Assembly: GCA_947627665.1 (NCBI GenBank)
Contig: CANQWX010000009.1
Coordinates: 1 to 64,000 of the forward strand
Direction: 5' to 3'
From: an uncultured Clostridia bacterium
GTDB taxonomy: Bacteria > Bacillota > Clostridia > Christensenellales > Borkfalkiaceae
Length of the DNA: 64,000 nt
This document shows positions 29,945 to 55,053 of the stretch, piece after piece. The notes below the pieces were generated by a model, which saw only the letters and a list, made by a program, of their open reading frames with translations, was not told where the DNA came from and did no database searches. How positions within the stretch are numbered: the stretch's first letter is position 1; each line of letters opens with the position of its first letter. A program made the position numbers and the translations under genes.

Positions 29945-30585
29945 AAATTCTCATCACGGGCGCGAGCAGCGGCATCGGGCGGGCCGCCGCGGAAAAGTTC
30001 CTCGCCATGCACCACGAAGTCGTCGGTCTGGACCTTCTTCCCGCCCCCTTTGCCGAAAAGCATTACACCCACTATATCTGCGACGTGACGGGAGAACTTC
30101 CCGATCTTGAAAACGTGGAGATCCTCGTCAACAACGCGGGGGTGCAAGACAGCGGCAAGGACATCGACGTCAATCTGAAGGGCGCCATCCGCGTCACCGA
30201 AAAATACGCGATGCAGCCGCACATCAGGAGCGTGGTATTCATCGCCTCGGCGAGCGCGACGACGGGGGCGGAATTCCCCGAATACACGGCGAGCAAGGGC
30301 GGGCTTATCTCCTACATGAAAAACGTTGCCCTCCGCGTGGCGGAATGGAGCGCGACGGCAAACAGCCTCTCCCCCGGCGGCGTGACGACCGCGCTCAACC
30401 GAAGGGTCATGGAGGACCCCGCGCTGTGGGCTGAGATCATGGCGCTCACCCCCCTAAAAAAATGGGCAAGTCCCGAGGAGATCGCCGAATGGATCTACTT
30501 TGTTTCCGCGGTGAACCGCTCGATGACCGCGCAGGACATCCTCATCGACAACGGCGAGAGCGCCGACGCAAAATTCATCTGGTAA
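29941..30585 (+). CDS. Short-chain dehydrogenase/reductase
   Basis: 214 residues, a compact classical SDR. The dinucleotide-binding TGASSGIG is at 6-13, NNAG near 66-69, the catalytic Ser in ASASATTG and YTASK with Tyr and Lys near 118-122; SPGGVTTALN is the usual post-catalytic loop. The start overlaps the transporter stop as ATGA, so the two are translationally coupled. The loop after NNAG is shorter than normal. The substrate is unknown; SDRs are not part of the standard queuosine pathway, so the coupling may be incidental. Confidence 0.93.
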   Translation: MKILITGASSGIGRAAAEKFLAMHHEVVGLDLLPAPFAEKHYTHYICDVTGELPDLENVEILVNNAGVQDSGKDIDVNLKGAIRVTEKYAMQPHIRSVVFIASASATTGAEFPEYTASKGGLISYMKNVALRVAEWSATANSLSPGGVTTALNRRVMEDPALWAEIMALTPLKKWASPEEIAEWIYFVSAVNRSMTAQDILIDNGESADAKFIW

Positions 30586-30596
30586 GCCGCACGGCG

Positions 30597-30638
30597 GCAT
30601 AAAAAAGAACGGACGGCAGGGTCCGTTCTTTTTTATGC
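30597..30638. terminator. Bidirectional intrinsic terminator
   Basis: GCATAAAAAAGAACGGAC (30597-30614) pairs with GTCCGTTCTTTTTTATGC (30621-30638) around a 6-base loop: an 18-bp stem with the A- and T-runs built in. It ends the dehydrogenase operon (plus) and the large minus-strand operon ending at 30667. Confidence 0.94.
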
Positions 30639-30666
30639 GTTTTTTGCGTTTTCGGTGCGGGCAGCG

Positions 30667-33600
30667 CTAACCTGTGAGTTCCAGCGTGCCCGTGCGGCAT
30701 TCGACTTCGTAGCAGTCGGTGACGTCGTTCCCGTCGCGGTCGTAGATACGGTATTCGAACGTGTTGGCGGAACTGCCCACGCCCTCTTGTTTTCCCGTCA
30801 CGGTGACCTCGAGGCGGTCGCCCTCCGCGAGGGAGCCGAAGGCGAGCGTCCAGCCCTCCGCCGTGAGCGGCGTGCCGTCATCCCGCCGGCTGACCGACTC
30901 CGTGGCGATGGTGATCGAGCGTTTCAGAACGGTCAGGGTAGGCCCCTCCTCGAAGAACACCACATATTCGTCCTCGTCGAGGAGGCCATGGAATCCCGAC
31001 GTATACACTTCGATCGGCAGCGCTTTGATGTCCTCCATCGAAAGGCTCCCCGGTTTTGTCAGGCTGCCTTCCAGAATAAAATACACGCTCAGGTTTGCAA
31101 AGTTTTCCACATAGTACCAATCATGCGGCAGGTATGTGAGCGGCGTGCCGTCGTATACCTTGCTGACGTCGAAGAGCGCGATGACGATCTTATAGCGTAT
31201 CCGCACCCAACCGGGGGTGTAGAGGAACTGATAATTGTCCGTGACATCTCTCCCCTGCTCATCGAACATGCTCAGATAGAACATGTTCGTAAAGCGGGAA
31301 ACATAGCTCCGTTTGAGGTAGATAGGAACGGTATAGGTGTGTCCCTCAACGAGCGGATAGCCGTCCTCCCCGACGGTGAATTCGGTGCTGCCGTGTTCGT
31401 TCCCGTCGAAGAAGAAGTCCTTGTTCGTGATGATGATGTGCACGAAACGGCGGGTGATCTCGAACGTGCCGAACCCGTAAGCGATCTCGTAATTGTCCGT
31501 CACCTCGCCGCGGGAGGTGTTCTCGATCTTGGCCGTGAAGCGGTTCTCTTCGCGGCAGACGTCGGTGTGCGAAAGGAAGGACAACACAAGGCTGTCCCCG
31601 TCCACGAGCGTGCCGTCCGTCACCGTGACGTCCTTCCCGCTGCCTTGATGCGGCTGCCCGTCGTAGACCGCGGAAACGTCGGACGAAGTCAGCGTGATCG
31701 GGCGGGGGGTGATGGTCAGCGTGCCGTACTCATAAGAGATCTCGTAGTTCGCCGTCTTGTCGGTCCCCTGCCCGTCGCGGATCTGCACCCGCACGAGATT
31801 TTGCCACCTTCCCACGTCGACGCCCTCATAGCCTTTGATCTTCTCGAGATCGGGTCCCGCATAGAAGATCGAGTGGCCGCTCACCAGCCGTTTGTCGACA
31901 AGTTCGAGCTTCTTGAATTCGGGACGGGTGCCGTCATAGACATGTTCGCCGCTCTCCGTCCGCACCGTGATGGCGCGGGGATAGATCTCGAGGTTGCCCG
32001 CATGCGCGAGAACGTCGATCTCGTAGTAGTCGGTGACGTCGCGGCTGCCGCTGCCCAAAACGCGGAACGTGAGCACGTTCTTCGTGATCCCCACGTCCGT
32101 GCGGGAGAGCGGCGAGCCGGAAACGACGAGGCGGTGGCCGCTCAAAAGACCGATCCCGGAAACGACGCGGCTGCCGCTCGTGGCGCTGTGCGGTTTGCCG
32201 TCGTATTCGAAGCGGGCGCTCGGCGTTTCCACCTCGATCTTCCGCCGCACGATGGAGATCGTGCCGTATTCGTAGGAGAGCGCATAGTTGCGCGTGACCT
32301 CTTCGCTGTCCGCATAGACGGCGGCGCCGAATTGGTTGCTCTTGCTCTCGTACAGGGCGGTGACGGTGGGAAACGCGCCCAGCGCCTTGAGGGTATGCCC
32401 TTCCGCAAGGCCGTATTCCCCCACCTCCTCGCACGAGCCGTCGGAATGGGGCTTGCCGTCGTAGGGGAAGGCCGTGCTCGCCGTCCGCACCGTGATGGGA
32501 CGGGGCAGGATCTCGAGCTTGCCGTAGGAATAGCGGATGCTGTAATTGCGGGTGACGTCCTCGCCGCCGCGCGAAGCGTTGGTCAGGTAGGCTTCGAAGA
32601 GGTGTTCGGCGACGCCGACGTCGGTGCGCCCGCCCGTGACGGACGCGACGTAGTTCACCTCGTCCCCCTTTGCAGGCCCGTTGCCCACGGGGTCGCCTTT
32701 GCCATCTCCCCGTTGCAGCTTTCCGTTGTAGAGGAGCTGTATGTCGCGGGAGCGGAGCACGAGAGAGCGCGGGGTGATCTCAACGGTGCCGTTGAGATAG
32801 GAAAGTTCATAATTGCCCGTCACGTCCCGTTCTCCCTCGGGGAGCGCGGGGTCCTCTATGAGCGCCTTGACCGCGTTTTCCCACTCGCCCACGTCGATAC
32901 GGTCGTAGGGCGCGGACGGAACGCTTTCGCCGAACACCAGCCTGTGCTCCTTGACAAGGCCGAGGCCGCCCGCGGGGAGCAGTTCGGGGAATTCCTTCCT
33001 CGTGCCGTCATAGACCGCCGTTCCCGACTGCGTCTGCACCGTCACGGGACGGGGGGTCATGAGCAGGCTGCCGTAGGCCGAACAGCGCACGTCGTAGTTC
33101 TCCTTGACGCTCTCCCCCGCCTCGTCTGTGACCGTGTATTCGACAAGACGGTTTTCGAGGCTTGCGACCTCATCGTAGGCGTAGTAGACGTCCCGTATCT
33201 CGGTAGACTTCGTGATCGTGAGGGTATGTCCCTGCACGAGATCGTAGGGAGATTGGGGCGCGAGGAGATAGTCGGAACAGGTATGTATCTCGCCGTCGTA
33301 GCAGAACTCCGCCGAGCCTGTGACGATGCGCACGGGACGGGGCTTGATTCTGAGCACATCGTATTTTTTTTCGATGGCATAATTGCGGGTGACGTCCACG
33401 CCCGCGCCGTCTATGATGAGAACGGTGAACGTCCTTTGGACGGGAGTCTGGTTCACGTCTTTGATCTTCGCCGAAGGATCGGTGGTACAGATCGCCCGCT
33501 GCCCCGCCACGAGCGCGTCTGCGTCGACGAAAAAGTCCTCTGCGTCCTCCTCGGGGGAGGGGGTATGTTCGGTGCCGTCGTAGATCCACGAACGGGGCAT

Positions 33601-35340
33601 CACCGACACATAGAGCGGGCGGGGGGTGACGGTCAAAGTGCCGTACTCATAGGAGATGTCATAGTTCGGCGTAAGGTCGTTGCCCTTCAGGTCCAGAACG
33701 AACGCCGTGAAGTGGTTCTCCGCGGGGGTCTCCCACACGTTGGTGACGAACGCCTCTGGGGAGAGCCTGAGATAGGCGCCTTCGGGAGCGAGGGTGCCAT
33801 CGATGAGTTCGATATCCTGCTCCTCCCCGCCGTGCGCTTTGCCGTCGTACTCCCACTGGCGGCTCAGCGAGCGCACCGTGACGGGACGGGGCAGAATGGT
33901 AAGCGTTCCGAATTCATAGACGATATTATAGCAGAAGAGCCTCTGCGACAGATCGGACGGTCCCTGAGCATTGTAGATGTCGATGACGATCTCGTTGCGC
34001 ATGGAAAGGATCTCGTCCCCCTCCCGCATCACGTCGCGGCAAGAGGATACCATAAAGAGCCGCCACTCGTCCCCCTCCGCCAGCGCCGACGTCTGTGCGG
34101 GATCGCTCCCCGCATAGCGCAGGATACAGTCCTCCTCCCGCGCGGCGTGTTCCTCCCCGTCGTAGACCGCCTCGATGTCCTTGGACGTCACGACGATGGG
34201 ACGGGGCAGGACGGAGAGCTTGCCCGCGGAGAGAGAGATGACATAGTTGGAGGAAACGTCCTTGCCGTCGCCGTCCAGAACGGACGCGGTGAGGGTGATC
34301 TCCTTTTCTCCCACGAGGGTGATCTCGTCCGCGCCGTCGAGCACGACGCGGTGCCCCGCCGCAAGCTCCTCAATCTCGTCTGCGCCGATCTCACGCCCGC
34401 TGACGCGCAACGGGGTCCCGTCGTATTCCTTTTCGACGGTGCCGAGATCGACGGAGATCGGCCGTCTGCCGACGGTGAGTTCCCCCGCCGCGATCTCGAA
34501 GCGGTAGTAACCCGTCCGCTCCTCCTGTCCGTGAAAGACCCCCACCGTGGGTGTGTTTTTCATACTGCCCGCGTCGACGATCGACGCGGGGAATCCGAGG
34601 ACGAGTTCGTCACCGGAGGCGAGCGTCCCCTCTTCCAGCTCGTATTCCGAGCAGGTGAGCGGCGTGCCGTCGTATACCTTTTCGGCGTCCTTCACCCGTA
34701 TGGTGAGGGTGCGGGGCGCGGCGTTCACTTCGCTCTCGCGGGCGGTAATGCTATAACAGAAGGTGATGTCCTCCCCGTTTTCGCCGAAGATGCGGACCGC
34801 CTCCAAGACGGGGGTGATGAACGCCTTGCATGGCGCCGAATCGATCTCCCCCTTGCCGTATGCCTCGGGAAAACGGTAGGAAAACTGCGTACAGGTCACG
34901 CTCTCCCCTTGGAGCAAGGAGGCGGTTGGCTCAGGCTCTTCCCCGTAGACCCATTCCCGCGCCGCGCCGACGGAAACTTCCCGCGGGACGATCCGGAAGA
35001 AGTGTTCCTTGCCTTTCTTTCCCGCGCCTTTGGAGAGGGCGCGCACCCAATAGCTGCCGACGAGGCGGGGGACTTCCTCCGTCCATTCGCCGCCGTCGGG
35101 ACGGTATTCGTAACGCACCCCCTGGAACACCGCGCTCGCACGGTAAGGGATCTCCTCGCCGTAGACGATCTCCGCGGGGCATTCGGTGGCGTCGCTCACC
35201 ACGCCCGCCATGCTCGACATGGTGATGACAAAGACGAGCGCCGCGACGAACAGGCAGGCGATCAGCACGCGGAAGCGCCACAGCTTTTGCAGCAGCGCTC
35301 CCACCCTTTGCATTTTGTTTTGGTATTCGTGATAGAGCAT
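30667..35340 (-). CDS. Giant membrane-anchored protein of about fifteen MBG/YDG modules
   Basis: 1557 residues, last gene of the eight-gene operon, starting 11 bp after the transglutaminase-like gene. A basic cytoplasmic N-terminus and one membrane helix (about 25-46) act as signal anchor; the rest is outside. After an entry domain (VYGEEPEPTASLL near 130), about fifteen modules of 80-105 residues follow. Each opens with a PRPITV-like strand and a (V/E)YDG(T/K)P(L/H) turn and closes with DVTxNYxxSYxxGTLxI. This is the MBG/YDG module family found in bacterial adhesins and filamentous surface proteins. There is no LPXTG or other C-terminal sorting signal; the protein ends within a module. A long rigid stalk or adhesive fibre is likely. 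Two modules of the same type end the neighbouring 3018-residue protein. Confidence 0.88.
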   Translation of the reverse strand: MLYHEYQNKMQRVGALLQKLWRFRVLIACLFVAALVFVITMSSMAGVVSDATECPAEIVYGEEIPYRASAVFQGVRYEYRPDGGEWTEEVPRLVGSYWVRALSKGAGKKGKEHFFRIVPREVSVGAAREWVYGEEPEPTASLLQGESVTCTQFSYRFPEAYGKGEIDSAPCKAFITPVLEAVRIFGENGEDITFCYSITARESEVNAAPRTLTIRVKDAEKVYDGTPLTCSEYELEEGTLASGDELVLGFPASIVDAGSMKNTPTVGVFHGQEERTGYYRFEIAAGELTVGRRPISVDLGTVEKEYDGTPLRVSGREIGADEIEELAAGHRVVLDGADEITLVGEKEITLTASVLDGDGKDVSSNYVISLSAGKLSVLPRPIVVTSKDIEAVYDGEEHAAREEDCILRYAGSDPAQTSALAEGDEWRLFMVSSCRDVMREGDEILSMRNEIVIDIYNAQGPSDLSQRLFCYNIVYEFGTLTILPRPVTVRSLSRQWEYDGKAHGGEEQDIELIDGTLAPEGAYLRLSPEAFVTNVWETPAENHFTAFVLDLKGNDLTPNYDISYEYGTLTVTPRPLYVSVMPRSWIYDGTEHTPSPEEDAEDFFVDADALVAGQRAICTTDPSAKIKDVNQTPVQRTFTVLIIDGAGVDVTRNYAIEKKYDVLRIKPRPVRIVTGSAEFCYDGEIHTCSDYLLAPQSPYDLVQGHTLTITKSTEIRDVYYAYDEVASLENRLVEYTVTDEAGESVKENYDVRCSAYGSLLMTPRPVTVQTQSGTAVYDGTRKEFPELLPAGGLGLVKEHRLVFGESVPSAPYDRIDVGEWENAVKALIEDPALPEGERDVTGNYELSYLNGTVEITPRSLVLRSRDIQLLYNGKLQRGDGKGDPVGNGPAKGDEVNYVASVTGGRTDVGVAEHLFEAYLTNASRGGEDVTRNYSIRYSYGKLEILPRPITVRTASTAFPYDGKPHSDGSCEEVGEYGLAEGHTLKALGAFPTVTALYESKSNQFGAAVYADSEEVTRNYALSYEYGTISIVRRKIEVETPSARFEYDGKPHSATSGSRVVSGIGLLSGHRLVVSGSPLSRTDVGITKNVLTFRVLGSGSRDVTDYYEIDVLAHAGNLEIYPRAITVRTESGEHVYDGTRPEFKKLELVDKRLVSGHSIFYAGPDLEKIKGYEGVDVGRWQNLVRVQIRDGQGTDKTANYEISYEYGTLTITPRPITLTSSDVSAVYDGQPHQGSGKDVTVTDGTLVDGDSLVLSFLSHTDVCREENRFTAKIENTSRGEVTDNYEIAYGFGTFEITRRFVHIIITNKDFFFDGNEHGSTEFTVGEDGYPLVEGHTYTVPIYLKRSYVSRFTNMFYLSMFDEQGRDVTDNYQFLYTPGWVRIRYKIVIALFDVSKVYDGTPLTYLPHDWYYVENFANLSVYFILEGSLTKPGSLSMEDIKALPIEVYTSGFHGLLDEDEYVVFFEEGPTLTVLKRSITIATESVSRRDDGTPLTAEGWTLAFGSLAEGDRLEVTVTGKQEGVGSSANTFEYRIYDRDGNDVTDCYEVECRTGTLELTG
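30670..34740 (-). repeat. About fifteen tandem MBG/YDG coding modules
   Basis: Protein-level tandem repeats of about 250-310 bp each, strongly diverged in DNA. Recurrent markers are KVYDGTPL, EYDGTPLRVS, VYDGEEHAA, EYDGKAHGG, IYDGTEHTP, CYDGEIHTC, VYDGTRKEF, LYNGKLQRG, PYDGKPHSD, EYDGKPHSA, VYDGTRPEF, VYDGQPHQG, FFDGNEHGS, KVYDGTPLT and RRDDGTPLT, in that order from N to C terminus. Confidence 0.85.
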
Positions 35341-35351
35341 GGTCCCCTCGC

Positions 35352-38300
35352 CTAATTCGTTACGGTAAGCGTGCCGTTGACGGTTTCGATGATGTAGTTC
35401 TGCGTGACGTCCTCGCCCGCTTCGTTGACGATCTTAACTTTGGCGACGCGGGTGGTGACTCTGCCGGGCTTGGTGAGCGTCCCTTCGATCTCCACCGTGA
35501 TCTCATCCCCCGCGGCAAGAGAGCCGTCGAGCGTATATCCGTCGCAGGTTTGCGGGGTGCCGTCGTATTGCTTCCTTTCGCTCTTTGCCGAAACGGTGAT
35601 CTTGCGGGGCGTGACGGTCAAAAGACCGAATTCGCCGCCGATCTCGTATTCCGCCGTGACGTCCGCGCCCGAAGCGTCCAGAATGACCACCTTGGGAATG
35701 TTCGCCACGGAGCCGACGTCGCGGATGCGCACGGGGAAGATCAAGGGCTGTAACGTGTGGCCGGGCGCCAGCTCGCCGCGGAAGAGATAGCGGTCGTCGC
35801 CCGCATGGTATTTCCCGTCATATTCCACCGTAAGACCGAAGGTGGTAAAATACAGGACCCGTTTTTCTCCCTTGGCGGCGGCGTCGATCTCCCGCTGCGC
35901 CTGTTCGGCGGCATCCCGCACCTCCTCTTCGGTCTGCGCGTTTTCGATCGCCTTCTTTCCCGCCTCCGTCGCTTCGTCGATCTTGTCCTTGATGCTCTGC
36001 TTTTGATCGCCGGTAAGATCGCCGCGGCGGTCGGTCTCCTGCTTCTTCTCTTCGCCGTAGTTTCCAAGCGCTTTCTTGGCTTCTTCCTTGTCCTTACCGA
36101 GCTGCGCGTCCTCCACGGCTTTTTGCACTTCCCGTTCGGCGTTTTGGAGCGCTTCGTCCGCCTCGCCGCCTGTTTCGGCGCCGTCGATCGCTTCCTTGCC
36201 GCGCTCTACCGCGTCATCGATCTCCTTTTGCAGCGCTTCCTTCTCTTCGGGGGAGAAACTGCCGTTTTCCGCCAGCTCCTCTTTGACCCGCTCTGAAAAG
36301 TCCCCAAGCTCTTGCTTGGCGTCCTCCTTATCCTTGCCGAGCTGCGCGCCCTCGAAAAGATCCTGCACCTTCTGCTTGCCGTTCTCCAGCTCGCGCGTTA
36401 CATCCTCTCCCGAGGCGGCGCCGCCGATCGCTTCCTTGGCATCCTCCACGGCTTCTTCGATCTGCCGTTTGAGTTCGGAGCGCTCTCCCGAGGAGAAACG
36501 GCTATCCTGCTCGGTCTCCTGTTTGAACCGCTCGCCGAGGTCCTCGATCTCCTTCTTTGCTTCCTCTTTGTCCTTGCCGAGCTGCGCGCTGTCCGTAATA
36601 TCGTCCAGCTTCTCCTTGCTCTCCTGCAAGCTGCCGCTCACGTCCTCTCCCGAGGAAGCGTCGCCGATCTCTTCCTTGCCGCCTGCCACGGCGTCGTCGA
36701 TCTGCTGTTTGAGCGCCTCTTTCTCCTCATCGGAGAAGCGGCCGTCCGCTTCGATCTCCTGTTTCTTTGCTTCGCCGTAACTTCCAAGCTCCTGCTTTGC
36801 GCTCTCCTTCTGCGCGCCGAGGTCGCCCTTGCTGTCCGCGATGCCGTCCACGGCGTCCTTGCCCTTGCCCAGCTCGCGCTCCACTCCCTCCTGCGAGGAG
36901 GCGTCATCGATCGCTTTTTTGCCGCTCTCCACGGCGTCGCCGATCGCGTCTTTAGCGGCTTCCTTCTGATCTCCGCTCAGCGAACCGTCGCCGTCGATCT
37001 CCTGCTTCTTCGCCTCGCCGTAGTCCTCAAGCTCCTGCTTGGCGTTCTCCTTTTGTTTTCCGAGCGCGGCGCCGTCCTGCACGCCGTCCACCGCTTCCTT
37101 GCCTTCTTCCAGCTTTCCGCCGAGTTCGCCCTTCCCGGAAGCGCCGTCCAAAGACTGTTTTCCGCGCTCCACGGCGTCGTCGACCTGCTGTTTGAGTTCC
37201 TGTTTCTCCTTGTCGGTGAAGCGGTCGTCGCCGTCGATCTCCTGCTTCTTCTCTTCGCCGTAGTCCTCGAGTTCCTTCTTGGCGTCCTCTTTGTCCTTGC
37301 CGAACTGCGCGCCGTCCGTAATATCGTCCAGCTTCTCCTTGCCGTCCTTCAAGTCCCCGCTGACGTCCCCGCCCGAGGAAGCGCCGCCGATCGCCTCTTT
37401 GCCGCTCTCCACGACGCCGTCCATCGCGTCCTTGATCGCTTGCTTCTCCTCGTCGGTGAAGCGGTCGTCGCCGTCGATCTCCTGCTTCTTCTCTTCGCCG
37501 TAGTCCTCAAGCTCTTTCTTGGCGCTCTCCTTCTGGGTATCGAGGTCGCCCTTGCTGTCCGCAATGCCGTCGACGGCCTTCTTGCCGTCCGCAAGACCGC
37601 TCTGCACGCCCTCGCCCGAGGTCGCGCCGCCGATCGCTTCCTTGCCGTTCTCCACTGCGTCGTCGATCGCGTCCTTGATCGCTTGCTTCTGTTCTTCGCT
37701 CAAAGAGCCGTCCTCTTCGGCTTCCTTTTTCTTCTCTTCGCCGTAGTCCTCGAGTTCTTTCTTGGCCTCTTCCTTGTCCTTGCCGAGCTGTGCGCCGCCG
37801 CTGACGCCGTCCACGGCGCCCTTGCCGTCCGAAAGACCGCCCTGCACTTCCCCTCCCGAGGAAGCGCCGCCGATCGCCCCCTTGCCGCTCTCCACGGCGT
37901 CGTCGATCTGCTGTTTGAGGTCCTCCTTCTCACGGTCGGTAAAGCGGTCGTCCTCTTCGATCTCCTGTTTCTTCTCTTCGCCGTAGTCCTCAAGCTCTTT
38001 CTTGGCGCTCTCCTTCTGGGTGTCGAGGTCGCCCTTGCTGTCCGTGACGCCGTCCACGGCGCCCTTGCCGTCCGAAAGGCCCCCCTTCACTTCCTCGTCC
38101 GAAGAAGCGTCGTCGATCTTTTCTTTGCCCTCCTCGACGGCTTGGTCGATCGCGTCCTTGATCGCGTCCTTCTGCCCGTCGGTGAGAGAGCCGTCCCTAT
38201 CGACTTCCTGTTTCTTCTCGTCGCCATAGCCCTCAAGCTCCTGCTTGGCGTTTTCCTTCTGTCCGTCGAGCCGGTCGCTCCCGAAATCGCTCACCGCGCC

Positions 38301-44408: not shown

Positions 44409-44417
44409 GATCCTCCT

Positions 44418-46109: not shown

Positions 46110-47922
46110 CGTCCCCGTCCCCCGCGCGGCTCACGTCTTGTTGCGGCTCCGCCGTTTCGGCAGAAGTTCCCTCTTCGGTCTTTTCTACGGCATTTTCCAA
46201 TGTTTCGGCAGAAGTTCCCTCTTCGCTCTTTTCTACGGCGCTCTCCGCGCCGTTCTCCGTGTCGGCAGATGCCGCCGCCTTTTCGCGCTTTTGTTTCCGC
46301 TGCGCGAGAATGGAGGCGACCGTCGCCTTCCACATCTCGAGCCGTATGCGCCGCCGCGCCTTCCGCCACTGTCCGCGGAAAAACGCCTGAAAGACGGCGT
46401 ATTGGTGCTCGAGTTCGCCGAAGCCCTCCTCGCTCGTGAGGTCCCCCTCTGCGGGCAGCCCCTGTTCAAAGCGCATTGCATTCAGCCGTCCCTCGGCGAG
46501 CCTGCGGCGTTCCTCCTCTCCGGTGAGCTGTTTTCTGCACTCTGCAAGCTCGCCCTCTTTTCCGCGCATCGCCGTGCGGGCGGCCTCGTCCCGCGCCGCC
46601 ATCTCGCGGTAGAAGCTGTCCTCCGCCTCGCGCATGGCAAGACGGTGCGCCTCGCGCTCTGCGTCCTTCTCCTTGGCGATCGCGCCGATACGGGCGTTCA
46701 GTTCGGCAAGTTCGGCGCCATGGCGCTCGTTGAGTTTTTCCATCTCGATGCGGTGCCCCTCGATGGTTTGGTGGAGCGACGCGATCTCGCCGTTCAGCTT
46801 TTCCACCTCCGCGCGGCGGAGTTTGAGTTCCTCGCTGTCCGCCTCGAGGGCCTTGTTGCGCTGCTCGAGGAGCAGCATGTATTCCTCGGCGCCGCCGTTT
46901 GCGGCGATGCGCTTTTTGAGCGCGCGAATGCGCTCGCGCTGGCGCTCCGCCTCCTCGAGCCTGCGGCGTTCCTCCTCTTTTTCGTATTCTCCGAGAAGAT
47001 AGTCCTCGATGCCAAGCCCGTGCTCGTAGGCAAGAAAGGAGGCAAGCATGACCGTTTCGGCGAATTCGTCGGCGATCGGCTCCCGCAAGGGGGAGAATTC
47101 CTGCACCTCCCGCTCGACCGTATAGCCGTCCTTGCGGTAGGCGACGAGGAACTCGTACAGCTTGACGACCTCCTTGAAGTTTTTGTCCATGCGAAGGACG
47201 TTGGTCTTGGTGATGGGCGGTTTGAGTTTATCCGTCTTGGCGACCTCGAGCATGAGCGGGGTGCGCAGGTAATAGTAGACCGCGCGCAGAATAAGCTCGA
47301 TGCGCTCGAGGAGGGCGCCCGCGGGGTTGTGTTCGAGCAGGTATTTGTCGTCCTTGCGCTCCTCGGAGAGGGTCATGCGGTAGACGAGGCGCTCCTTGTT
47401 GTAGTTGACGACCTTGTCGAATTTGAGTTCGCCGCTGTAAGTGTTGGCCAGCTCTAAGATCCTGTCGCGGCGGACGGTGACGAAATCCCGCAGGTTGCAG
47501 AGGACGAGATAGAGAAAGCGGTTCTCGTAAACGGTGTAGTCGTTGAGCCGCTCCACGGTGTAGAGGCGGTCGGGAACGATGTCCTTCCCCTCCTCGGCGC
47601 GCGTGATGTAGTTGCTGTGCCGCGCGAGGTGGGCGACCGACTCCTTGGAAACGTGCTTTACCTTCTCGATCTGCTCCGTTTCCCCCTGGGAAAGAATGAA
47701 TTGCCGCTCCTCGCCGATCGCCTTGCCGATGAAGGGAAGCCCCTCCTCGATCGCCTCCACCCAGTCCTCCTCCACGCTGCAATGGACGCGGGTGACGGAG
47801 AACCTGTCGTTTTCGGCATTGGCCTTTGCGATCGCTTCCCGCCGCAGGGTGCTCTCACGGTGGGAGAGGGTCAGCTTGCGGTACTCTTTGAGCGCGCGGT
47901 ATAAAAGATCAGTCTGCGTCAT
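46093..47922 (-). CDS. Coiled-coil protein resembling McrC/DUF2357-type partners of McrB-like ATPases
   Basis: 609 residues from ATG 47922 (MTQTDLLYRALKEY), with GGGAGGGG upstream. The N-terminal 320 residues are mainly helical, with ERLNDYTVYENRFLYLVLCN near 124-143; this resembles, from memory, the DUF2357 domain that pairs with McrB-like ATPases. Residues about 330-500 are a long coiled coil, and about 560-609 an acidic tail with two EEGTSAET repeats. I see no PD-(D/E)xK nuclease motif, so if related to McrC it has swapped the nuclease for a coiled coil. There is no signal peptide or membrane helix, so it is cytoplasmic. It lies between the two AAA+ genes, 13 bp from one and overlapping the other. 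Confidence 0.8.
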   Translation of the reverse strand: MTQTDLLYRALKEYRKLTLSHRESTLRREAIAKANAENDRFSVTRVHCSVEEDWVEAIEEGLPFIGKAIGEERQFILSQGETEQIEKVKHVSKESVAHLARHSNYITRAEEGKDIVPDRLYTVERLNDYTVYENRFLYLVLCNLRDFVTVRRDRILELANTYSGELKFDKVVNYNKERLVYRMTLSEERKDDKYLLEHNPAGALLERIELILRAVYYYLRTPLMLEVAKTDKLKPPITKTNVLRMDKNFKEVVKLYEFLVAYRKDGYTVEREVQEFSPLREPIADEFAETVMLASFLAYEHGLGIEDYLLGEYEKEEERRRLEEAERQRERIRALKKRIAANGGAEEYMLLLEQRNKALEADSEELKLRRAEVEKLNGEIASLHQTIEGHRIEMEKLNERHGAELAELNARIGAIAKEKDAEREAHRLAMREAEDSFYREMAARDEAARTAMRGKEGELAECRKQLTGEEERRRLAEGRLNAMRFEQGLPAEGDLTSEEGFGELEHQYAVFQAFFRGQWRKARRRIRLEMWKATVASILAQRKQKREKAAASADTENGAESAVEKSEEGTSAETLENAVEKTEEGTSAETAEPQQDVSRAGDGDDGNDE

Positions 47923-47935
47923 TTGCCCCTCCCTG

Positions 47936-49261
47936 TCAAGCGTTGTTGGCAAGCCGCATGATATACGCCTTGCAGAGGCTCATCTCGTCCTCGCCGAAGA
48001 GTTCGTCGAGGGTGGAGCACACCTCGGAGGACATGCTGCGCACATACACGGTGTTCTGCGTTTCGAGCTTGCGGAGCACCTTCTTTGCGACGATATCGTC
48101 GAGCGCGTCAAGCTCCCGCCCGCCGCACACGACGTATACGGGGATATACGCCTTCACCTGCTTCATGATACGGTTGCCGAAAGTGATGTGGAAAGTCTTG
48201 ACGAGATATTCGTCCAGACGGGAGAGCTTTTCGAGCGTTTCCGCCGAGATCGTGTAGCTGCTCTGCGCCTCCGCGACGAGGTCGGTAAATCCCTTGGCGG
48301 AGAGGCGGACGCAGCGGCTCTGCGAGGCATGGAAGGGTTCGCTCTTCTTGTCGAGGTTGAGCACCATGGCGCGGTCGTACACCTTGTCCGAGATCGCAAA
48401 CGTCGAGTCGTCGTTGTTCGCCGTCCCGATGAACCACATGTTCTCGGGCAGCTTGATCCGCCCCTCCCGCAATAGCTTCGGATCCGTCCGCCACTGGTCC
48501 GTCACCACCTCCAGCATCCGCGCCTCGGGGTCGGGGATCTCGAGCAGCGACAAGAACTCCGCAAAGTAGTACTCCACCCGCGCGATGTTCATCTCGTCGA
48601 GGATCGTGATATAGATGTCGCGGTTGTAGTTCGCTTCATAGATCTTTTGCAGCAGAAGCGTTTCGTTGAACCGCTTGGTAAATTCGTTGTAATACCCCAA
48701 AAGGTCCGTCCGTTCCTTCCACATCGGCTGTACGGGGATCACCGTGGACGGATTGTCCAAGAACTGCCCAAAGGCATACGCGAGCGACGTCTTGCCCGTG
48801 CCCGACATCCCCTGCAAGATGAGGATCTTCGACACCGCCATCCCCGCGATAAAGCGGCGGATGTCCGCGATGTCATAGTAAAGCCCCAATTTGTTCGCCG
48901 CAAAATTGCGGAATTCCTCGCAAAATACGGACAGCGTGACCGTATCGAAGGTGTCCGCCTGCGGCTTCCCGAAATAGCGCTCGTCGAGGAGGCCGAGCAT
49001 GCTGAAGCGGCTCACGCCGTCCTCCGCCTTCACCTCTTCCTTCTTGGCCGTGGCGCTCTCCTTGCGGCGGGTGCGCAGACGGCGGAGGGTCTTGGAAAAG
49101 AGGCTCTCCTTCATCATGATCGAAATGATGAGCATCAGGATGATCGCCAGAATGAGCACGATATAGATGATGATGGCGACGGGGGCGCTCATGTAGCCCC
49201 ACAGCACCTTGAAAAAGTTGTTTACGTCGTCAAACACCGCAAGCAAATTCCACATTTTCAT
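47936..49261 (-). CDS. Membrane-anchored McrB-like AAA+ ATPase (one membrane helix)
   Basis: 441 residues from ATG 49261, overlapping the GH3/pseudo-AAA stop as ATGA. One membrane helix at about 26-50 precedes a basic segment, then the AAA+ domain: Walker A GMSGTGKT 151-158, DLLGYYNEF 186-194, Walker B ITILDEMN 218-225, sensor GTANNDDST 279-287 and DRAMVLNLD 296-304. From residue 113 to 310 it is identical in protein sequence to the 563-residue ATPase and nearly identical in DNA, while the flanks are clearly diverged. The two are therefore paralogues kept alike in their motor core. A mixed ring made of both is a reasonable inference. Confidence 0.9.
   Translation of the reverse strand: MKMWNLLAVFDDVNNFFKVLWGYMSAPVAIIIYIVLILAIILMLIISIMMKESLFSKTLRRLRTRRKESATAKKEEVKAEDGVSRFSMLGLLDERYFGKPQADTFDTVTLSVFCEEFRNFAANKLGLYYDIADIRRFIAGMAVSKILILQGMSGTGKTSLAYAFGQFLDNPSTVIPVQPMWKERTDLLGYYNEFTKRFNETLLLQKIYEANYNRDIYITILDEMNIARVEYYFAEFLSLLEIPDPEARMLEVVTDQWRTDPKLLREGRIKLPENMWFIGTANNDDSTFAISDKVYDRAMVLNLDKKSEPFHASQSRCVRLSAKGFTDLVAEAQSSYTISAETLEKLSRLDEYLVKTFHITFGNRIMKQVKAYIPVYVVCGGRELDALDDIVAKKVLRKLETQNTVYVRSMSSEVCSTLDELFGEDEMSLCKAYIMRLANNA
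48331..48922 (-). repeat. Near-identical 592-bp segment, copy B (partner 44813-45404)
   Basis: Second copy, within the 441-residue ATPase gene. Outside the segment the two genes remain homologous at protein level (for example ITFGNRIMK and KKVLRKLETQN) but have drifted, which points to gene conversion rather than a fresh duplication. Confidence 0.95.
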
Positions 49262-52200
49262 ATCTCTTCTTCTCCCTCTCCTTTCACTTGCCGCAACATT
49301 CTCGCGCAGCGGGGGATATTTCCTTCCCCGAAGATCTCTTCCAGAACGGGCAACAGTTTTTCCCGCTTGCCCCCCTTGCGCAGCGCAAGGATACGGGCGA
49401 GCAGCTTGCCCGCGACGACGCTGTCGAGCGCGTCCGTGGGGGAACCTCCGCAGGCAAGATAGACGGCGGCGTGGCATTCCGCCGCGAGCCACACGCGGTT
49501 GCCGATGTGATAGGCGCCGAACGTGTTTGCCACCGCTTCGAGGCGGTCGACCTTCTTCCAGAGCGGCTCGTCGAGTTCATAGAGCAGCCGCACGCGGCGG
49601 TTCAGCTCAATGAGTTGGCGGTATCCGAAGGGACTTGGAAGGCTCTTTTCCTTTCGCGGCGGCACAAGTTTGTATTCGGGGCTAAGCCACGAACAGACAT
49701 CCGCCACGCAGGCGGGGATGTCGGCTGCGTCCTGCCCCTCCGAGAGAATGAGCACAAAGCGCAGGTTGGGCGGGATCGCCACGCCGCCCCGTCCGTAGCC
49801 CTCGGGGTCGACCGTCTGTCCCATGCGCGGGTCCCGCAGCCGTTCGGCGATGGGACGGAAATAATTCCCGAGCGCGGACAGCTTGACCTGCGTGAGCACG
49901 GCAAAATGCAGATAGGGCGTGAGTTCCGCCGCCGAAGAGAGGGTGCGGTAAAAATTGCTCTTGACCCGCACGCCGTGGTCCCCGTCCTTATAGAAGAGGT
50001 CCTCTTGCCCGCGGTAGTTTTCGGCGGGATCGGCGCGGAAGGCGCTGCCGAAATATTCGCAGAGCGCCGCGGCGAGGGTGATGAGCGGCTTTGCCGTTCC
50101 CCGCAGGACGATACAGCGGGTGGAGGCGATCGCCGCCATGAGCGAGCGCGCCGAGTCCTCCGTGAGCGCAACGCCGTGTTCCTCCGCGCAGAGCGACAGC
50201 TCTTGGACCGCCTTGGCAAAGGTGAGGGCTTCGTCGAAGTATTCCCCCTCTTCCTGTACGGCGGGGTGCTCCGTTTCCTCCTCCTTCTCCTCGAGCGCCT
50301 TCACGAAAAACCGCTCAAGCTCGTCCGAAGGCGCCGTGGCGGCGCCGCGGAATTTCTCGCTGTCGGCGGGAAGGTCGGCAAGGGCGCCCTTTCCTCTCGT
50401 CGCCCGTTCCGCAATGAGGGCGATGACCGAGAGCACGAGGAACAGATTGATCGCCGCCATCCAGCCCGCATAGCCCGCAAGCGACGGGAGCGAAGCGTGC
50501 GCCGCCGCCAGCAAAATATCCGCCAGAACGGTCACGGCCAAAAGCACCCATGCGGCGATGCGGGTGACGCGGTGTTCCTTGCGGTTGCGCAGAACGCGGA
50601 CGCGCGCCTCTTTCAAGGTGTATCCTCTGTACATGAGATCGGAGTAGCTCTGCAAATAGTCGGAGAGCGCTCCCTCCCGCGGCGGAAGGCTCTCTCCCTC
50701 CGCTTGGTAAAGCCCTTTCAGGCGGATATCCGAAACGGACGCGCCCACATAGAGGGTGTACATTCCGCCGTCGGGCACGGGGGCGTGGCTGTTTTCGCTG
50801 AAATGGGAGAACTGCGCCGCCGGAAGCGGGATCTCCACCGCGCGGCTCTCTCCCGCCCCGAGCGTGACCCGCACATAGGCGATGAGTTCCTTTTTGGGGC
50901 GCACGCCGCCCTTGCCCGCATACACCTGCACCGTTTCCGTCCCCGCGCGCGTGCCGCGGTTGGCGAGGGTGAAGCGGATGCCCGTTTCGTTGATCTCGAG
51001 CGCGGAATAGGCAAAATCGGTATAGGAAAGCCCGTGCCCGAAGGGATAGCGGGGAGGGATCCCCGCCGTGTCGTAGCGGCGGTAGCCGACGAAATCGCCG
51101 ACCTTGTTCCGCCCTGCGTCTTTATAATTTTTGAGCGCAAGAAACAGCTCGTCCGTATTGTCGTAATAGGTGCGGGAGAGCCTCCCCGAGGGGGAACGCT
51201 TCCCCGTTAAGATCTCGATGAGCACATCGTGGGAAACCGTCCCCGCAAGCGGCGCGAGCAGAACGGCGTCCACGTCTTTGTCGAAGCTCATGTCCGCGGG
51301 GTAGTCCCCCGAGAGCACGGCGACGATCTTCTTGCCCGTGCGGCGGAGCGCGGCGGCAAGGGCGAGCTGGTTGGCGGGAAGCGCCACGCTCTTGACGACG
51401 GGCATCTCCCTCTCCCGTTCGGCGCCCTGTCCGAGGAAGAGCAGCACCACGTCCGCCTCCTCGGCGAGCTGTACCGCCTCCGGAATAAGCTCCTCGCTCC
51501 TCTCCCCCGCGAGAAGATAGCCCGCCGCCTGTCCCACGGGGACAAGCCCGTGATCGAGCCGCGCGATGCGCGAGAAGCGCTTTGCAAAGTTGTCCTCTCC
51601 CTCCGCGGCGAGTGCACCGATCACGGCGACCTTCGTTTCCGCGGCGAGCGGCAACACGTCCTCGTTTTTGAGCAGGACGGTGCTCTCCTCCGCCGCACGG
51701 GCGAGAAGCCCGTCGGGCGAGGAGGGCGGGACCGCCTTCTTCTCCGCGATCGCGTATGCAAAGCCGATGATGCGGTCCACGGCCTCGTCGATGGCCTCTT
51801 CGGGCAGCGCAGTGCCCCGCCTGACCGCCGCGTCGGCCTCCTCTTTGGAAGCGCTCCCTTCGTCGGCGAGTTCCTTTAAGCGGCGATACCGCAAAAGGGC
51901 GGAATCGAGCGGGAGCACCGCCCCGCCGAGGCACACGCTCCCCTGCAGAAGCGCGCCGAGGTCCATGTCCCCGGGGACGTCCTCCAAAAGGAGGAAACCG
52001 TCCTTCATCACGCCGTGCACAAGGCGGCGGTTGACGTCCGAATAGTCCCCTTCGGGGCGGGCGAGCGAGGCGATCATGGCGTCCGCCCCCTCCTCCGCGG
52101 CGCGGGCAAAGGGCGCCTCGTACAGCTTCTCCACCGCGGCGCGGTCCTCTTTGACGTCGAGATATTCCACGTCCTCCCGCGCCAGAGAGCGGCGGTTCAG

Positions 52201-52590
52201 ACAGCTCCCCACGCCCGCGCGGCGGATCCCGCCCAGACATTCCCTGCCGAGCGTCCCGCAAAGATAGGGATCCTCGGAAAGACGGAGGGCGTAGGGGCTG
52301 ACCGCGCTCTTGAGATCGGGCGTGGAAACGAGCCGCACCCCGTTTGCGGCGGCCGTCGAGGCGAGGTAGGCGGAAACTTCCCCATAGAGATCGGGGTCCC
52401 AGCTCCGCGCCAGCTCGAAGAGGGAGGGAAAGAGAGGCTTTACGGCGTTGATCTCCTCCAGCGAAGCGAGGACGACGGCGGGAATGCCCGCGCGGTCGAT
52501 CTCCCCGTTCGAAAGGCTCTTGAGGTCGGTGAGCAGCGCCAGCTTTTGCCTTAAATTCAGCTTCGCCACGATCGCGGGATAATTCAGCAT
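49258..52590 (-). CDS. GH3-like domain fused via two membrane helices to a degenerate AAA+ domain
   Basis: 1110 residues. Residues about 1-285 follow the glycoside hydrolase 3 N-terminal fold (FPSLFELARSWDPDLYGE; RLSEDPYLCGTLGRECLGGI), but the usual KHF region is SCLNRRSLARED and the nucleophile region reads KDGFLLLEDVPG. Residues 290-530 match the GH3 C-terminal domain (STVLLKNEDVLPL; GYRRYDTAGIPPRYPFGHGL 502-520) with the acid/base loop altered (EREREMPVVKS), then a fibronectin-III-like domain (525-630). Helices lie at 675-697 and 703-727. Residues 785-1095 align with the neighbouring AAA+ proteins (GNRVWLAAECHAAVYLACGG 1030-1049, then DALDS), but Walker A is GTAKPLIT and the Walker B Asp-Glu is gone. 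With no signal peptide and an even number of helices, both ends should be cytoplasmic. Probably a scaffold or sensor, not an enzyme. Confidence 0.87.
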   Translation of the reverse strand: MLNYPAIVAKLNLRQKLALLTDLKSLSNGEIDRAGIPAVVLASLEEINAVKPLFPSLFELARSWDPDLYGEVSAYLASTAAANGVRLVSTPDLKSAVSPYALRLSEDPYLCGTLGRECLGGIRRAGVGSCLNRRSLAREDVEYLDVKEDRAAVEKLYEAPFARAAEEGADAMIASLARPEGDYSDVNRRLVHGVMKDGFLLLEDVPGDMDLGALLQGSVCLGGAVLPLDSALLRYRRLKELADEGSASKEEADAAVRRGTALPEEAIDEAVDRIIGFAYAIAEKKAVPPSSPDGLLARAAEESTVLLKNEDVLPLAAETKVAVIGALAAEGEDNFAKRFSRIARLDHGLVPVGQAAGYLLAGERSEELIPEAVQLAEEADVVLLFLGQGAEREREMPVVKSVALPANQLALAAALRRTGKKIVAVLSGDYPADMSFDKDVDAVLLAPLAGTVSHDVLIEILTGKRSPSGRLSRTYYDNTDELFLALKNYKDAGRNKVGDFVGYRRYDTAGIPPRYPFGHGLSYTDFAYSALEINETGIRFTLANRGTRAGTETVQVYAGKGGVRPKKELIAYVRVTLGAGESRAVEIPLPAAQFSHFSENSHAPVPDGGMYTLYVGASVSDIRLKGLYQAEGESLPPREGALSDYLQSYSDLMYRGYTLKEARVRVLRNRKEHRVTRIAAWVLLAVTVLADILLAAAHASLPSLAGYAGWMAAINLFLVLSVIALIAERATRGKGALADLPADSEKFRGAATAPSDELERFFVKALEEKEEETEHPAVQEEGEYFDEALTFAKAVQELSLCAEEHGVALTEDSARSLMAAIASTRCIVLRGTAKPLITLAAALCEYFGSAFRADPAENYRGQEDLFYKDGDHGVRVKSNFYRTLSSAAELTPYLHFAVLTQVKLSALGNYFRPIAERLRDPRMGQTVDPEGYGRGGVAIPPNLRFVLILSEGQDAADIPACVADVCSWLSPEYKLVPPRKEKSLPSPFGYRQLIELNRRVRLLYELDEPLWKKVDRLEAVANTFGAYHIGNRVWLAAECHAAVYLACGGSPTDALDSVVAGKLLARILALRKGGKREKLLPVLEEIFGEGNIPRCARMLRQVKGEGEEEI

Positions 52591-53174
52591 GTTCGGATCT
52601 CCTCCGTCCGTTCCGACGCGGACGCCGTGTTTTCCTCTTCTTCTCCCCTCCCCAGATGGCGGAAGAGGGAGAACGCACCCACCGCCGCGGCCAAGAGAAG
52701 GGTGGCGGCGAGAAGCGCGAGGGTGAATTTCTTGGTCGCGGAAGCGACCGTCCGCCGCTTTCCGCCCGTGCGCCGCAGGAGCGCCTCGCGGCCGCCGTCG
52801 TCCTCGGGGGCGTAGCGCACCCGCACCGCGTTCCGCTTGACCTCGTACACATAGTCGTGCGACCGCACGGAGCGGATCTCCACCCTCACGTCGCAGCAGA
52901 GGCTGTCGAGGGGGAATTTCCGCGTCGGCCCGAATTCCTCCGCAGGCAAGACGGGCGGCCCGTTATAGGTATATTCCCTGCTCCCGAGAAGTTTCCCGTC
53001 CTCCATGAGGCGGTGGATCACCATACGGAAGGAGGTGATGACCTCGCTCCCCTCGTTGGCGAAGCGGAGCAGAAGAAAACGCTTGCCGTCCTCCTCCCCG
53101 ATGAGATACTGCTTGACCGTGAGGAAACGGCTGAGCTGCCGATGGGTATAATTGCCTTTGCCGATCACGCGCAT
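52584..53174 (-). CDS. Tail-anchored small protein of unknown function
   Basis: 196 residues from ATG 53174. The first 125 residues look like a compact beta-rich cytoplasmic domain (KRFLLLRFANEGSEVITSFR; CCDVRVEIRSVRSHDYVYEV). A basic stretch (LLRRTGGKRR) precedes one helix at 150-172, and a short acidic tail ends in Cys. There is no signal peptide, so it is a tail-anchored protein with its domain in the cytoplasm. It overlaps the GH3/pseudo-AAA gene by 7 bp and starts 2 bp after the previous stop. I recognise no family. Its position suggests an adaptor for the AAA+ complex. Confidence 0.75.
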   Translation of the reverse strand: MRVIGKGNYTHRQLSRFLTVKQYLIGEEDGKRFLLLRFANEGSEVITSFRMVIHRLMEDGKLLGSREYTYNGPPVLPAEEFGPTRKFPLDSLCCDVRVEIRSVRSHDYVYEVKRNAVRVRYAPEDDGGREALLRRTGGKRRTVASATKKFTLALLAATLLLAAAVGAFSLFRHLGRGEEEENTASASERTEEIRTC

Positions 53175-53176
53175 CG

Positions 53177-54226
53177 CTACCGTCCCTCCCCGTTTTCTTC
53201 CGCAGACTGCGGGCCTGCCGCCTCTCCTTCGGGCGCGGCCTGTTCCGACTGCTCCGTCTGTTGCGCCTCTTCCGCGGGCGCTCCGCCCTCCGTTTCCGCG
53301 GACGCTGCCTCGGACGGCGGAGCGGCTTCCGTTTTCTTTTCCCGCCCAAGGCGGCGGAATTTTTCACGGAGCGTTTTCAGGCGTTCTCCCGCCGCACGGC
53401 GGAAAGCCCGCCACTTCTTCCGCAGGGCGAGCGCCGCTCTGCACGAGCCGAGAGATACGATCCCGTTGCGGACGCGGTAGAAGAGATTGCCGAGCGCGAG
53501 GCGGGCGCGGCGCAGAACGCTGCGCTTTGCCGCGCGGGGCGAGCGCCTTCTGCCGCGCAGATAGGCAAAGAGCTGTTTTGCCCCAAACAACGAAAATACC
53601 GCAACGAGTAAGACCGCTGCGGACAAAAAGAAAATATCGGTGAGAAAGGAGGCGGAACCCTGCGGAAAGACAAACGCCCCTTCCGCGAGGAGATGGGAGA
53701 AAGCGAGATCGCAGAAGAGCGCCTCGGCGGTGACCGCCGCCGCGAGAAAGAGCACGAGGAGCGCGCCGTAAAGAAGCTGCGGCCCGACGCCGCGCGAAGA
53801 GGGCTGCGCCTCCCCGTTGACAGAGCGGAGCGCGGGGGAAACAAAGCCCGTATCCTGCGGAAGGGAGATGCGTTCCCCTCTTCCCGCCCGCGGCAGTTCC
53901 CGGACAGAGAGCAGGCGCAAGATCTTGCCGCGGCAGTCGAAGACGTACAGATCGTACTCCGCGCAGATCACGTCTTTCGCCCATTTCCCGACGAAGAGCA
54001 CCCCGCTCTTCTGCCGCGCCAGACAGTATTGCAAGAGGGCGCCGCGGTGGAGGTAGGCGGGTTCGCAGACGATGGCGCTCCCCGAGGGGGTGTTGAGCCT
54101 GCGCACGCCCCTGTCGCGGCAGACGTATCCCGCCGTGCGGACGCGCAGCACGAGGCGCGGCAAAACGACCGCGATCGCGGTCGCGGCCAACAGCGTGGAC
54201 ATGATCAAAAAGAATATCCAGAGCAT
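53177..54226 (-). CDS. Membrane protein of unknown function, first gene of the eight-gene operon
   Basis: 349 residues. Membrane helices at about 1-24, 151-175 and 196-220. Between the first two is a domain of about 125 residues (GYVCRDRGVRRLNTPSG; VGKWAKDVICAEYDLYVFD). After the third helix comes a strongly basic helical stretch (RGRRRSPRAAKRSVLRRARL and onward), then an acidic, Glu/Ala-rich tail. This basic-then-acidic cytoplasmic tail could bind other operon products. The start ATG 54226 is about 40 nt downstream of the promoter; it has no strong ribosome binding site. No family recognised. Confidence 0.72.
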   Translation of the reverse strand: MLWIFFLIMSTLLAATAIAVVLPRLVLRVRTAGYVCRDRGVRRLNTPSGSAIVCEPAYLHRGALLQYCLARQKSGVLFVGKWAKDVICAEYDLYVFDCRGKILRLLSVRELPRAGRGERISLPQDTGFVSPALRSVNGEAQPSSRGVGPQLLYGALLVLFLAAAVTAEALFCDLAFSHLLAEGAFVFPQGSASFLTDIFFLSAAVLLVAVFSLFGAKQLFAYLRGRRRSPRAAKRSVLRRARLALGNLFYRVRNGIVSLGSCRAALALRKKWRAFRRAAGERLKTLREKFRRLGREKKTEAAPPSEAASAETEGGAPAEEAQQTEQSEQAAPEGEAAGPQSAEENGEGR

Positions 54227-54270
54227 CTTCGCCTCGGCGGGTGTCGTTCCCGATAAACGGTGATAAAACT

Positions 54271-54300
54271 ATTATACAAGAAAACGACCTTTTCCGTCAA
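54271..54300 (-). promoter_or_regulatory. Promoter of the eight-gene operon
   Basis: Minus strand TTGACG (54300-54295), 18-bp spacer, TATAAT (54276-54271). It is the only good promoter I see for the 23.5 kb from 54226 to 30667. Confidence 0.8.
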
Positions 54301-54332
54301 GTTTTTGACGCCCGTTTTTGATTTTTTTCTCC

Positions 54333-54373
54333 CTCTTGCCCGCCGCGGAGAGCTTCCCCGCGGCGGGCAAGAG
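54333..54373. other. Perfect 16-bp GC-rich hairpin upstream of the eight-gene operon
   Basis: CTCTTGCCCGCCGCGG (54333-54348) and CCGCGGCGGGCAAGAG (54358-54373) flank a 9-base loop. It follows the phosphopantetheinyl transferase gene on the minus strand, but what comes after it there is A-rich (GGAGAAAAAAATC), so it lacks a U-tract. It may still end or pause transcription. Confidence 0.6.
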
Positions 54374-54382
54374 GCAGGGCGT

Positions 54383-55048: not shown

Positions 55049-55053
55049 CACGG

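Follow-up and report, generated by a model that had tools for sequence, protein, structure and literature searches.

The 64,000-nt stretch of an uncultured Clostridia bacterium analyzed here (contig CANQWX010000009.1 of assembly GCA_947627665.1, positions 1 to 64,000; hereafter, the window) carries a run of eight minus-strand genes, from position 54226 down to 30667, in which two membrane-anchored ATPases resembling McrB, a DUF2357 protein and a third, apparently dead AAA module are linked to two giant surface proteins. A preliminary description of this DNA, made from the letters alone, had read the operon as a membrane motor working on surface fibers. That remains the best reading, and it gains comparative support from related loci. 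We propose that a McrBC-type motor has been repurposed as an envelope machine, in which a ring at the membrane would grip the tails of surface proteins and export, assemble or tension them; we put the chances of this joint function at about even. The positions of all eight open reading frames (ORFs) were confirmed, and the junctions recomputed from them (+2, -7, -4, +13, -17, +9 and +11 bp) equal those first given. All genes and domains below lie on the minus strand.

AAA1 (47936-49261; 441 aa) and AAA2 (44418-46109; 563 aa) both contain a live McrB-like core. A Pfam scan of the operon proteins returned an AAA_5 match, the best PDB match of AAA2 was McrB (6hz4, E = 1.1e-4), itself a GTPase, and a profile of the AAA proteins aligned to Escherichia coli McrB with an hhalign probability of 97.4%. 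Walker A, Walker B, the sensor residues and an NxDD motif were invariant in an 18-sequence alignment; this includes both Asp residues of NxDD, for which an ungapped NxxD reading is also possible. The pattern N-x-D-[DE]-S was present in 124 of 126 distinct cores, in agreement with the NxD clade as set out in the relevant passages of Bell et al. (2024, PMC11090510). On this sequence evidence, AAA1 and AAA2 are McrB-type AAA+ NTPases with an NxD motif. Their anchors differ: AAA1 has one N-terminal transmembrane (TM) segment, followed by a linker that is shorter in the alignment than that of the S26-kind relatives described below, while AAA2 has an N-terminal multi-TM anchor (four segments, counted by eye). 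The three AAA modules of one family, two live and one dead, were thus correctly recognized at the outset, the live cores keeping the invariant motifs and the third (AAA3) lacking Walker A. The comparison then made with both McrB and MoxR holds for McrB; as to MoxR, Pfam scans of the eight proteins gave no vWA match, and a MoxR-vWA system was rejected as a candidate for lack of a vWA gene among them.

The two live ATPases share a 544-bp tract of identical DNA (48331-48874 in AAA1 and 44813-45356 in AAA2) which has sharp ends, starts ahead of Walker A and stops beyond sensor 1, and is attributed to gene conversion. The window is not alone in this. Of 66 distinct twin loci, 16 have 205-residue cores that are identical in protein; in 14 of the 16 the DNA is identical as well, over shared tracts of 873-1170 bp. 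In the 15 identical-core pairs that allow a comparison, the anchors were 32-59% identical. When the labels A1 and A2 were placed on the ATPase tree they needed 23 and 24 changes, respectively. In Anaerocaecibacter muris the cores were identical in protein and showed six synonymous differences; homogenization is therefore not only an assembly effect. These patterns indicate that the catalytic cores have been repeatedly homogenized by gene conversion while the anchors were kept distinct, a clear natural example of gene conversion confined to a functional domain. The same ring surfaces on different anchors are what a mixed ring would predict. Homogenized twin ATPases with different membrane anchors are a new feature with respect to the known systems.

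The gene between the two ATPases (46093-47922) encodes a 609-aa protein described in the preliminary account as a coiled-coil McrC/DUF2357-like protein. PF09823 (DUF2357) was detected in 11 of 14 relatives of this protein at E 0.01 (best 2.9e-12); the window protein itself matched at 9.8e-4, below the family cut-off. Its second half is Glu/Arg-rich and coiled-coil-like by composition, the coiled-coil matches in the PDB being weak. Pfam scans of the window protein and the 14 relatives found no nuclease family, PD-(D/E)xK included. The partner is, as classified by these profiles, a DUF2357 family protein, as the first account had it, and no nuclease was detected in it; its coiled-coil part stands on composition and the weak matches.

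The third AAA module belongs to a 1110-aa protein (49258-52590) composed of a pseudo-GH3 region, a TM hairpin and AAA3. The latter spans about residues 710-1103 (49282-50463; limits from AAA hidden Markov model (HMM) coordinates and hhalign) and aligned to the live AAA profile with an hhalign probability of 100 and E = 4e-41 (control, 0.1%). It has no Walker A motif where aligned; a G....GK[ST] string occurred somewhere in three of 66 third proteins. We conclude from the alignments that the third AAA module is real and dead; such a module, here fused to a pseudo-GH3, is also new. The GH3-like region covers residues 1-640 (50671-52590; phmmer and a 26-sequence alignment). Its fold, noted in the preliminary description, was borne out by Pfam matches to Glyco_hydro_3_C (1.3e-31) and Fn3-like (8e-14) and by a phmmer match to beta-glucosidase 7ms2 (1.8e-55). 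GH3 enzymes are recognized by a nucleophile Asp and a K-H motif. Neither the nucleophile region nor the K-H motif was conserved in the 26-member alignment, and the window sequence allows one Asp to be aligned to the nucleophile and has no K-H. Since the catalytic region is not conserved, the GH3 region is probably not an enzyme. A region like that of the window was found in 52 of 66 third proteins (all fetched loci, window included), and it is absent in some relatives that keep the other genes.

The first two genes encode the two small membrane proteins of unknown family reported initially. The product of o1 (53177-54226) has 349 aa and a C-terminal tail (alignment of 18 members including the window); that of o2 (52584-53174) has 196 aa and is predicted to consist of a beta-sandwich on the N-terminal side of a C-terminal TM helix (mean predicted local distance difference test score, pLDDT, 84.9). 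A PDB fold search with the o2 model returned generic beta-sandwiches, with no significant fold match (best E 0.009). In loci L091 (A. muris) and L084 the o2 domain runs on into some 1,800 residues of BspA-type leucine-rich repeats (LRR; LRR_5), and L089 and L143 have o2 ORFs of comparable length.

These components could also serve outside-in sensing. The MBG, transglutaminase and LRR ectodomains would bind host, mucus or neighboring cells, and tension or contact passed through the tails would make the NTPase signal to the inside. The ectodomains are indeed of adhesin type, a dead AAA module joined to a pseudo-enzyme is typical of regulators, and the beta-sandwich of o2 lies N-terminal to its TM in the model. 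Yet Pfam scans found no signaling output gene in the operon, and two live NTPases with homogenized cores suggest mechanical work rather than a switch. We consider sensing unlikely.

Within the genus, an AAA1 relative (E ≤1e-30) was found in 42 of 103 genomes. In nine of these 42 the sole ATPase was divergent (36-51% identical), and the eight such loci that were fetched were single-ATPase loci; the twin-ATPase kind was thus present in 33 of 103 genomes, window included. The uninterrupted order o1, o2, GH3, AAA, DUF2357, AAA, surface gene was seen in 22 of the 32 other twin loci fetched, and AAA-DUF2357-AAA in 30 of them; the two that lack it are contig-end pieces. Loci L026 and L070 break off ahead of the surface genes, at or close to a contig end; in L042, L045, L063 and L064 the full order is cut by contig ends; and in L041 and L065 o1 and o2 were not detected. 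Other species preserve the gene order at far lower protein identity, and the neighborhood is not a product of chance. A search of relatives for linkage between the ATPases and the giant proteins had been suggested as a check on the first description; the linkage is kept within the genus and across families, and the description withstands this check. Two flanking gene families were shared, both in the same three of 34 loci, and no conserved chromosomal site was found among these 34 loci, although many hold zero to two flank genes and the test is weak. A plasmid or phage origin was rejected: AAA1 matches occurred in 266 plasmid and two phage records, all below 60% identity and none covering 80%. 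Klebsiella accounts for 161 of the 266 plasmid records with these distant relatives.

To look beyond the genus, more than 588 relatives were ranked by how closely they resemble the window ATPase, and the 79 named loci analyzed are the top of that ranking. They include contig fragments, close kin and genomes overlapping the G-numbered set; S26, MBG and TG (transglutaminase) calls were made with custom HMMs built from few loci, and gene calling is rough in AT-rich loci. Forty-six of the 79 carried MBG/TG-type proteins, 20 carried S26-like proteins, 13 neither and none both; given the ranking, 46:20 is not a frequency. Ten of the 13 are pieces of 3-11 kb, and the other three (L117, L141 and L152) are long and have a single ATPase and a DUF2357 protein, with no S26-like or MBG/TG genes. 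In the MBG kind, two ATPases were detected in 40 of 46 loci and a third AAA-like protein in 33; in the S26 kind there was one ATPase in all 20 and a third AAA in none. The MBG kind occurs in Clostridia, Lachnospiraceae, ruminococci, Anaeroplasmataceae and A. muris, with the AAA-DUF2357-AAA-MBG core recurring in the last four. ORFs with a SipW-type signal accompany 14 of 20 S26 loci; the figure is 1 of 46 for the MBG kind and 3 of 13 for the remainder. 'SipW-type' or 'TasA-like' denotes a signal-peptide motif pattern, and three such proteins scanned matched no Pfam family. The 'S26' label goes back to one scanned protein with a clear match, which lay below the curated cut-offs (S24, 18.8/23.3 bits; S26, 18.6/22.9). 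On the ATPase tree (quick method, midpoint root) the two kinds fell on separate branches, with Shimodaira-Hasegawa-like approximate likelihood ratio (SH-aLRT) values of 81 for the twin kind and 89 for the other; the six 'single' rows in the twin branch are loci with one usable ATPase. Genomes G005 (L043, L051) and G147 (L071, L080) hold both kinds of locus.

Two arrangements in the S26 kind are worth recording. Loci L072, L073 and L075 hold, in a common order, genes for a single ATPase, a DUF2357-type protein, an S26-like protein, an ATP-binding cassette (ABC) transporter ATPase plus permease-like gene, and a beta-helix protein. In L080, a gene at 1213-2610 encoding an HD + EAL protein (EAL, 1.7e-32) lies two genes ahead of the S26-like gene and clusters with a gene of L051.

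The two giant outside proteins of the window were as first described, each with one N-terminal TM. The TG protein (35352-44408; 3018 aa) contains three stretches of Transglut_core and ten of DUF1542 together with MBG-like repeats, and matches TgpA_N (3.2e-8). The MBG protein (30667-35340; 1557 aa) has a cytoplasmic tail, a TM and MBG/YDG repeats, YDG being detected by Pfam; no LPxTG was found in either. Among 56 transglutaminase domains the commonest residues at the first two positions of the Cys-His-Asp triad were Cys (86%) and His (96%). The three window domains keep both, with E, D and E at the third position (by eye). TG domains were found in 27 of the 46 named MBG loci; seven first surface proteins scored as TG-negative were scanned with Pfam, again without a transglutaminase match. 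As far as these profiles reach, the transglutaminase is optional and the MBG/YDG-type repeats are the constant partner. A transglutaminase as the core of the system was accordingly rejected, and in the coupling first proposed, of ATPases to transglutaminase/MBG proteins, the repeats and not the enzyme are the constant part. No TG was found in the available sequence of L098 and L106 (Anaeroplasmataceae) or L107 (Anaeroplasma), which by their NCBI names are Mollicutes. Mollicutes are wall-less, and a general role needing peptidoglycan is therefore unlikely.

The last surface protein carries a short motif, Y..Y..[KR], just before its TM; in the window, Y..Y..K lies in the N-terminal tail of MBG (residues 1-24; 35269-35340). 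The motif was present in 57 of 64 distinct last surface proteins, kin counted, found with an HMM of the TM and ectodomain whose source rows (less two) had motif-chosen starts. It occurred in 2.3% of shuffles and in none of 65 first surface proteins; the seven last proteins without it look, by eye, like degenerate forms. This predicted cytoplasmic tail motif is a further new feature. The S26-like proteins have a different cytoplasmic motif, at the C-terminus: the strict pattern K.[RK]AIEEY was found in 16 of 31 (S26 loci L049-L053, L080, L132-L159). With a looser pattern in seven genomes, the motif was found in 8 of 12 S26-like proteins at ATPase loci and in none of seven elsewhere; linkage was judged from contig positions, two of the seven unlinked proteins are weak S26 matches, and L171 has a similar string by eye.

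If the surface genes merely traveled with an unrelated membrane NTPase module, variable surface content, with TG and LRR optional, and few shared flanks would be expected, as is the case. However, none of the 79 loci, the top of more than 588 by rank, combines MBG/TG with S26-like genes, even though G005 and G147 hold both kinds; the linkage of motor to surface protein spans families and NCBI phyla; and the tail motif accompanies it. Such passive linkage is very improbable.

The McrBC relatives known to date are nucleic-acid-cutting defense machines, and this ancestry of the ATPases raises the possibility that the operon encodes a membrane-bound relative of type IV restriction that surveys the envelope for phage, with the surface proteins acting as shield, decoy or sensor and NTPase activation leading to arrest or damage. 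The ATPases do match a phage-defense candidate model, PDC-M26A (PADLOC, 4.5e-47), and their presence is patchy (33 of 103 same-genus genomes, few shared flanks). On the other side, Pfam scans of the eight proteins detected no nuclease, HEPN or other known effector, the surface proteins are constantly coupled to the motor, and PADLOC gives nothing for GH3, o1 or o2. Defense is, on balance, an improbable explanation, about on a par with sensing.

The envelope machine is favored because of the likeness to McrB, the DUF2357 partner, the kept linkage, the homogenized cores and the tail motif; because in the sister branch this motor stands beside S26-like proteins and SipW-type ORFs, which also points to surface biogenesis; and because the S26 tail motif of that branch occurs at ATPase loci and not elsewhere. 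From the components, their co-inheritance, the homogenized cores and the tail motif, all read in the sequence itself, we infer a ring, its grip and the work it does, as follows. AAA1 and AAA2 would form one mixed ring on the cytoplasmic side of the membrane, with the DUF2357 protein as its cytoplasmic stalk and as its activator, much as McrC stimulates McrB. AAA3/pseudo-GH3, o1 and o2 may be regulatory or docking subunits. The ring would grip the Y..Y..[KR] tail of MBG, and NTP hydrolysis would power insertion, export, assembly or tensioning of the surface proteins; transglutaminase domains, where present, may crosslink them.

Several observations weigh against this proposal, the PDC-M26A match being one. 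A profile of 66 DUF2357 N-domains gave no alignment to E. coli McrC (0.1%), and a PDB fold search with the DUF2357 model (mean pLDDT 87.5) found no significant match (best E 0.22). Same-genus loci L044 and L068 lack GH3, o1 and o2. The MBG loci L090, L107 and L108 have a single ATPase gene immediately ahead of the surface genes, with no DUF2357 gene beside it, which may reflect collapse of identical repeats in assembly, contig ends or a real lack. Finally, the idea that the tail is more conserved than the ectodomain failed: overall tail identity is not above that of the adjacent ectodomain (0.318 vs 0.337).

A wider view, which we offer tentatively, is that a motor of the restriction-type McrBC sort has turned into a general membrane engine for surface structures: a mixed ring, kept uniform by gene conversion and plugged by DUF2357, that would pull or thread short tails in two branches. 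The MBG/TG branch would work on the N-terminal tail of the surface protein itself, and the other would rely on a dedicated signal peptidase, acting by way of its tail. If true, surface fibers would be driven by cytoplasmic NTP independently of sortase, also in Anaeroplasmataceae, which are relatives of wall-less bacteria. Should the envelope machine prove correct, a defense NTPase has been turned to envelope work, in a membrane-tethered form without a detected nuclease that has giant surface proteins as its fixed partners in many gut bacteria, and a function can be offered for a large clade of AAA+/DUF2357 pairs that has gone unstudied. The three-position tail motif, the proposed twin-subunit ring and a named carrier strain (Anaerocaecibacter muris CLA-AA-M11) make the proposal testable.

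As to transcription, the single good promoter claimed initially was found by the promoter scan on the minus strand at 54271-54300 (TTGACG-18-TATAAT, 11/12). Promoter-like sites numbered two in 49500-55500 (0.4 expected from shuffles) and seven inside 30000-49500 on both strands (3.4 expected), the three minus-strand ones scoring 9/12; because of these extra sites, an internal promoter within 30000-49500 is possible. Past the last stop of the operon lies a hairpin of 18 pairs with a T run (30597-30638; strand unset, the T run being on the plus strand as scanned). The G+C content at third codon positions (GC3) was 0.78-0.85 in the eight genes, inside the range of the eleven other window ORFs (0.64-0.85), and composition therefore gives no hint of recent import. 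Just past the operon, a minus-strand gene (22983-28919) encodes a 1978-aa putative lipoprotein with BspA-type LRR_5 (3.5e-19) and InlB-like repeats.

Among known systems, the membrane AAA translocase Bcs1 offers an analogy, in that its AAA ring sits at the membrane behind an N-terminal TM; it is of another AAA clade and has no McrC-type partner. McrBC type IV restriction systems share the McrB-like AAA core and the DUF2357 family partner, whereas the window has membrane anchors and, in Pfam scans, no DNA-binding or PD-(D/E)xK domain. MoxR-type ATPases are found beside the transglutaminase TgpA. As for the phage-defense candidate PDC-M26 of PADLOC, AAA1 and AAA2 match PDC-M26A (4.5e-47 and 1.2e-45) while the other operon proteins match no PDC-M26 model; no paper was found under that name. 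The MoxR-vWA ternary systems (PMC7159879, in the passages concerned) resemble the window in having an AAA_5-type ATPase near a transglutaminase, and the window TG has TgpA_N, but the window has no vWA gene and its ATPases are McrB-type. No paper describing the MBG/TG form was recognized in the literature searched, which left out most subscription journals, and the main text of PMC13082335 names no AAA ATPase or McrB. The CoCoNuT systems, as presented in passages of PMC11090510, combine an NxD NTPase with a coiled-coil-like McrC-type partner; unlike them, the window has no HEPN or other nuclease among its eight proteins (Pfam). The preliminary description knew of no named system with this combination. 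There is a named relative in print, CoCoPALM, an McrBC pair beside a signal peptidase to which Bell et al. (2024, PMC11090510) give one paragraph, deferring details to a later paper; the TG/MBG form does not appear in those passages. So far as they go, the two share an McrB-like NTPase with an NxD motif and an N-terminal TM (FtsB-like and followed by a coiled coil in CoCoPALM), a DUF2357/McrC-type partner with a coiled-coil part and no known nuclease, and a tie to surface biogenesis. The window differs in its two ATPases, its dead AAA3/pseudo-GH3 and its MBG/TG proteins, and the signal peptidase is absent from the operon (Pfam) and from all 46 named MBG loci. The CoCoPALM arrangement was recovered here as the S26 kind, on a branch separate from that of the window. 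Since the motor features agree and the signal peptidase is lacking, the operon is not filed as a member; to judge by its genes, it is a sister variant of CoCoPALM, which is its closest named system.

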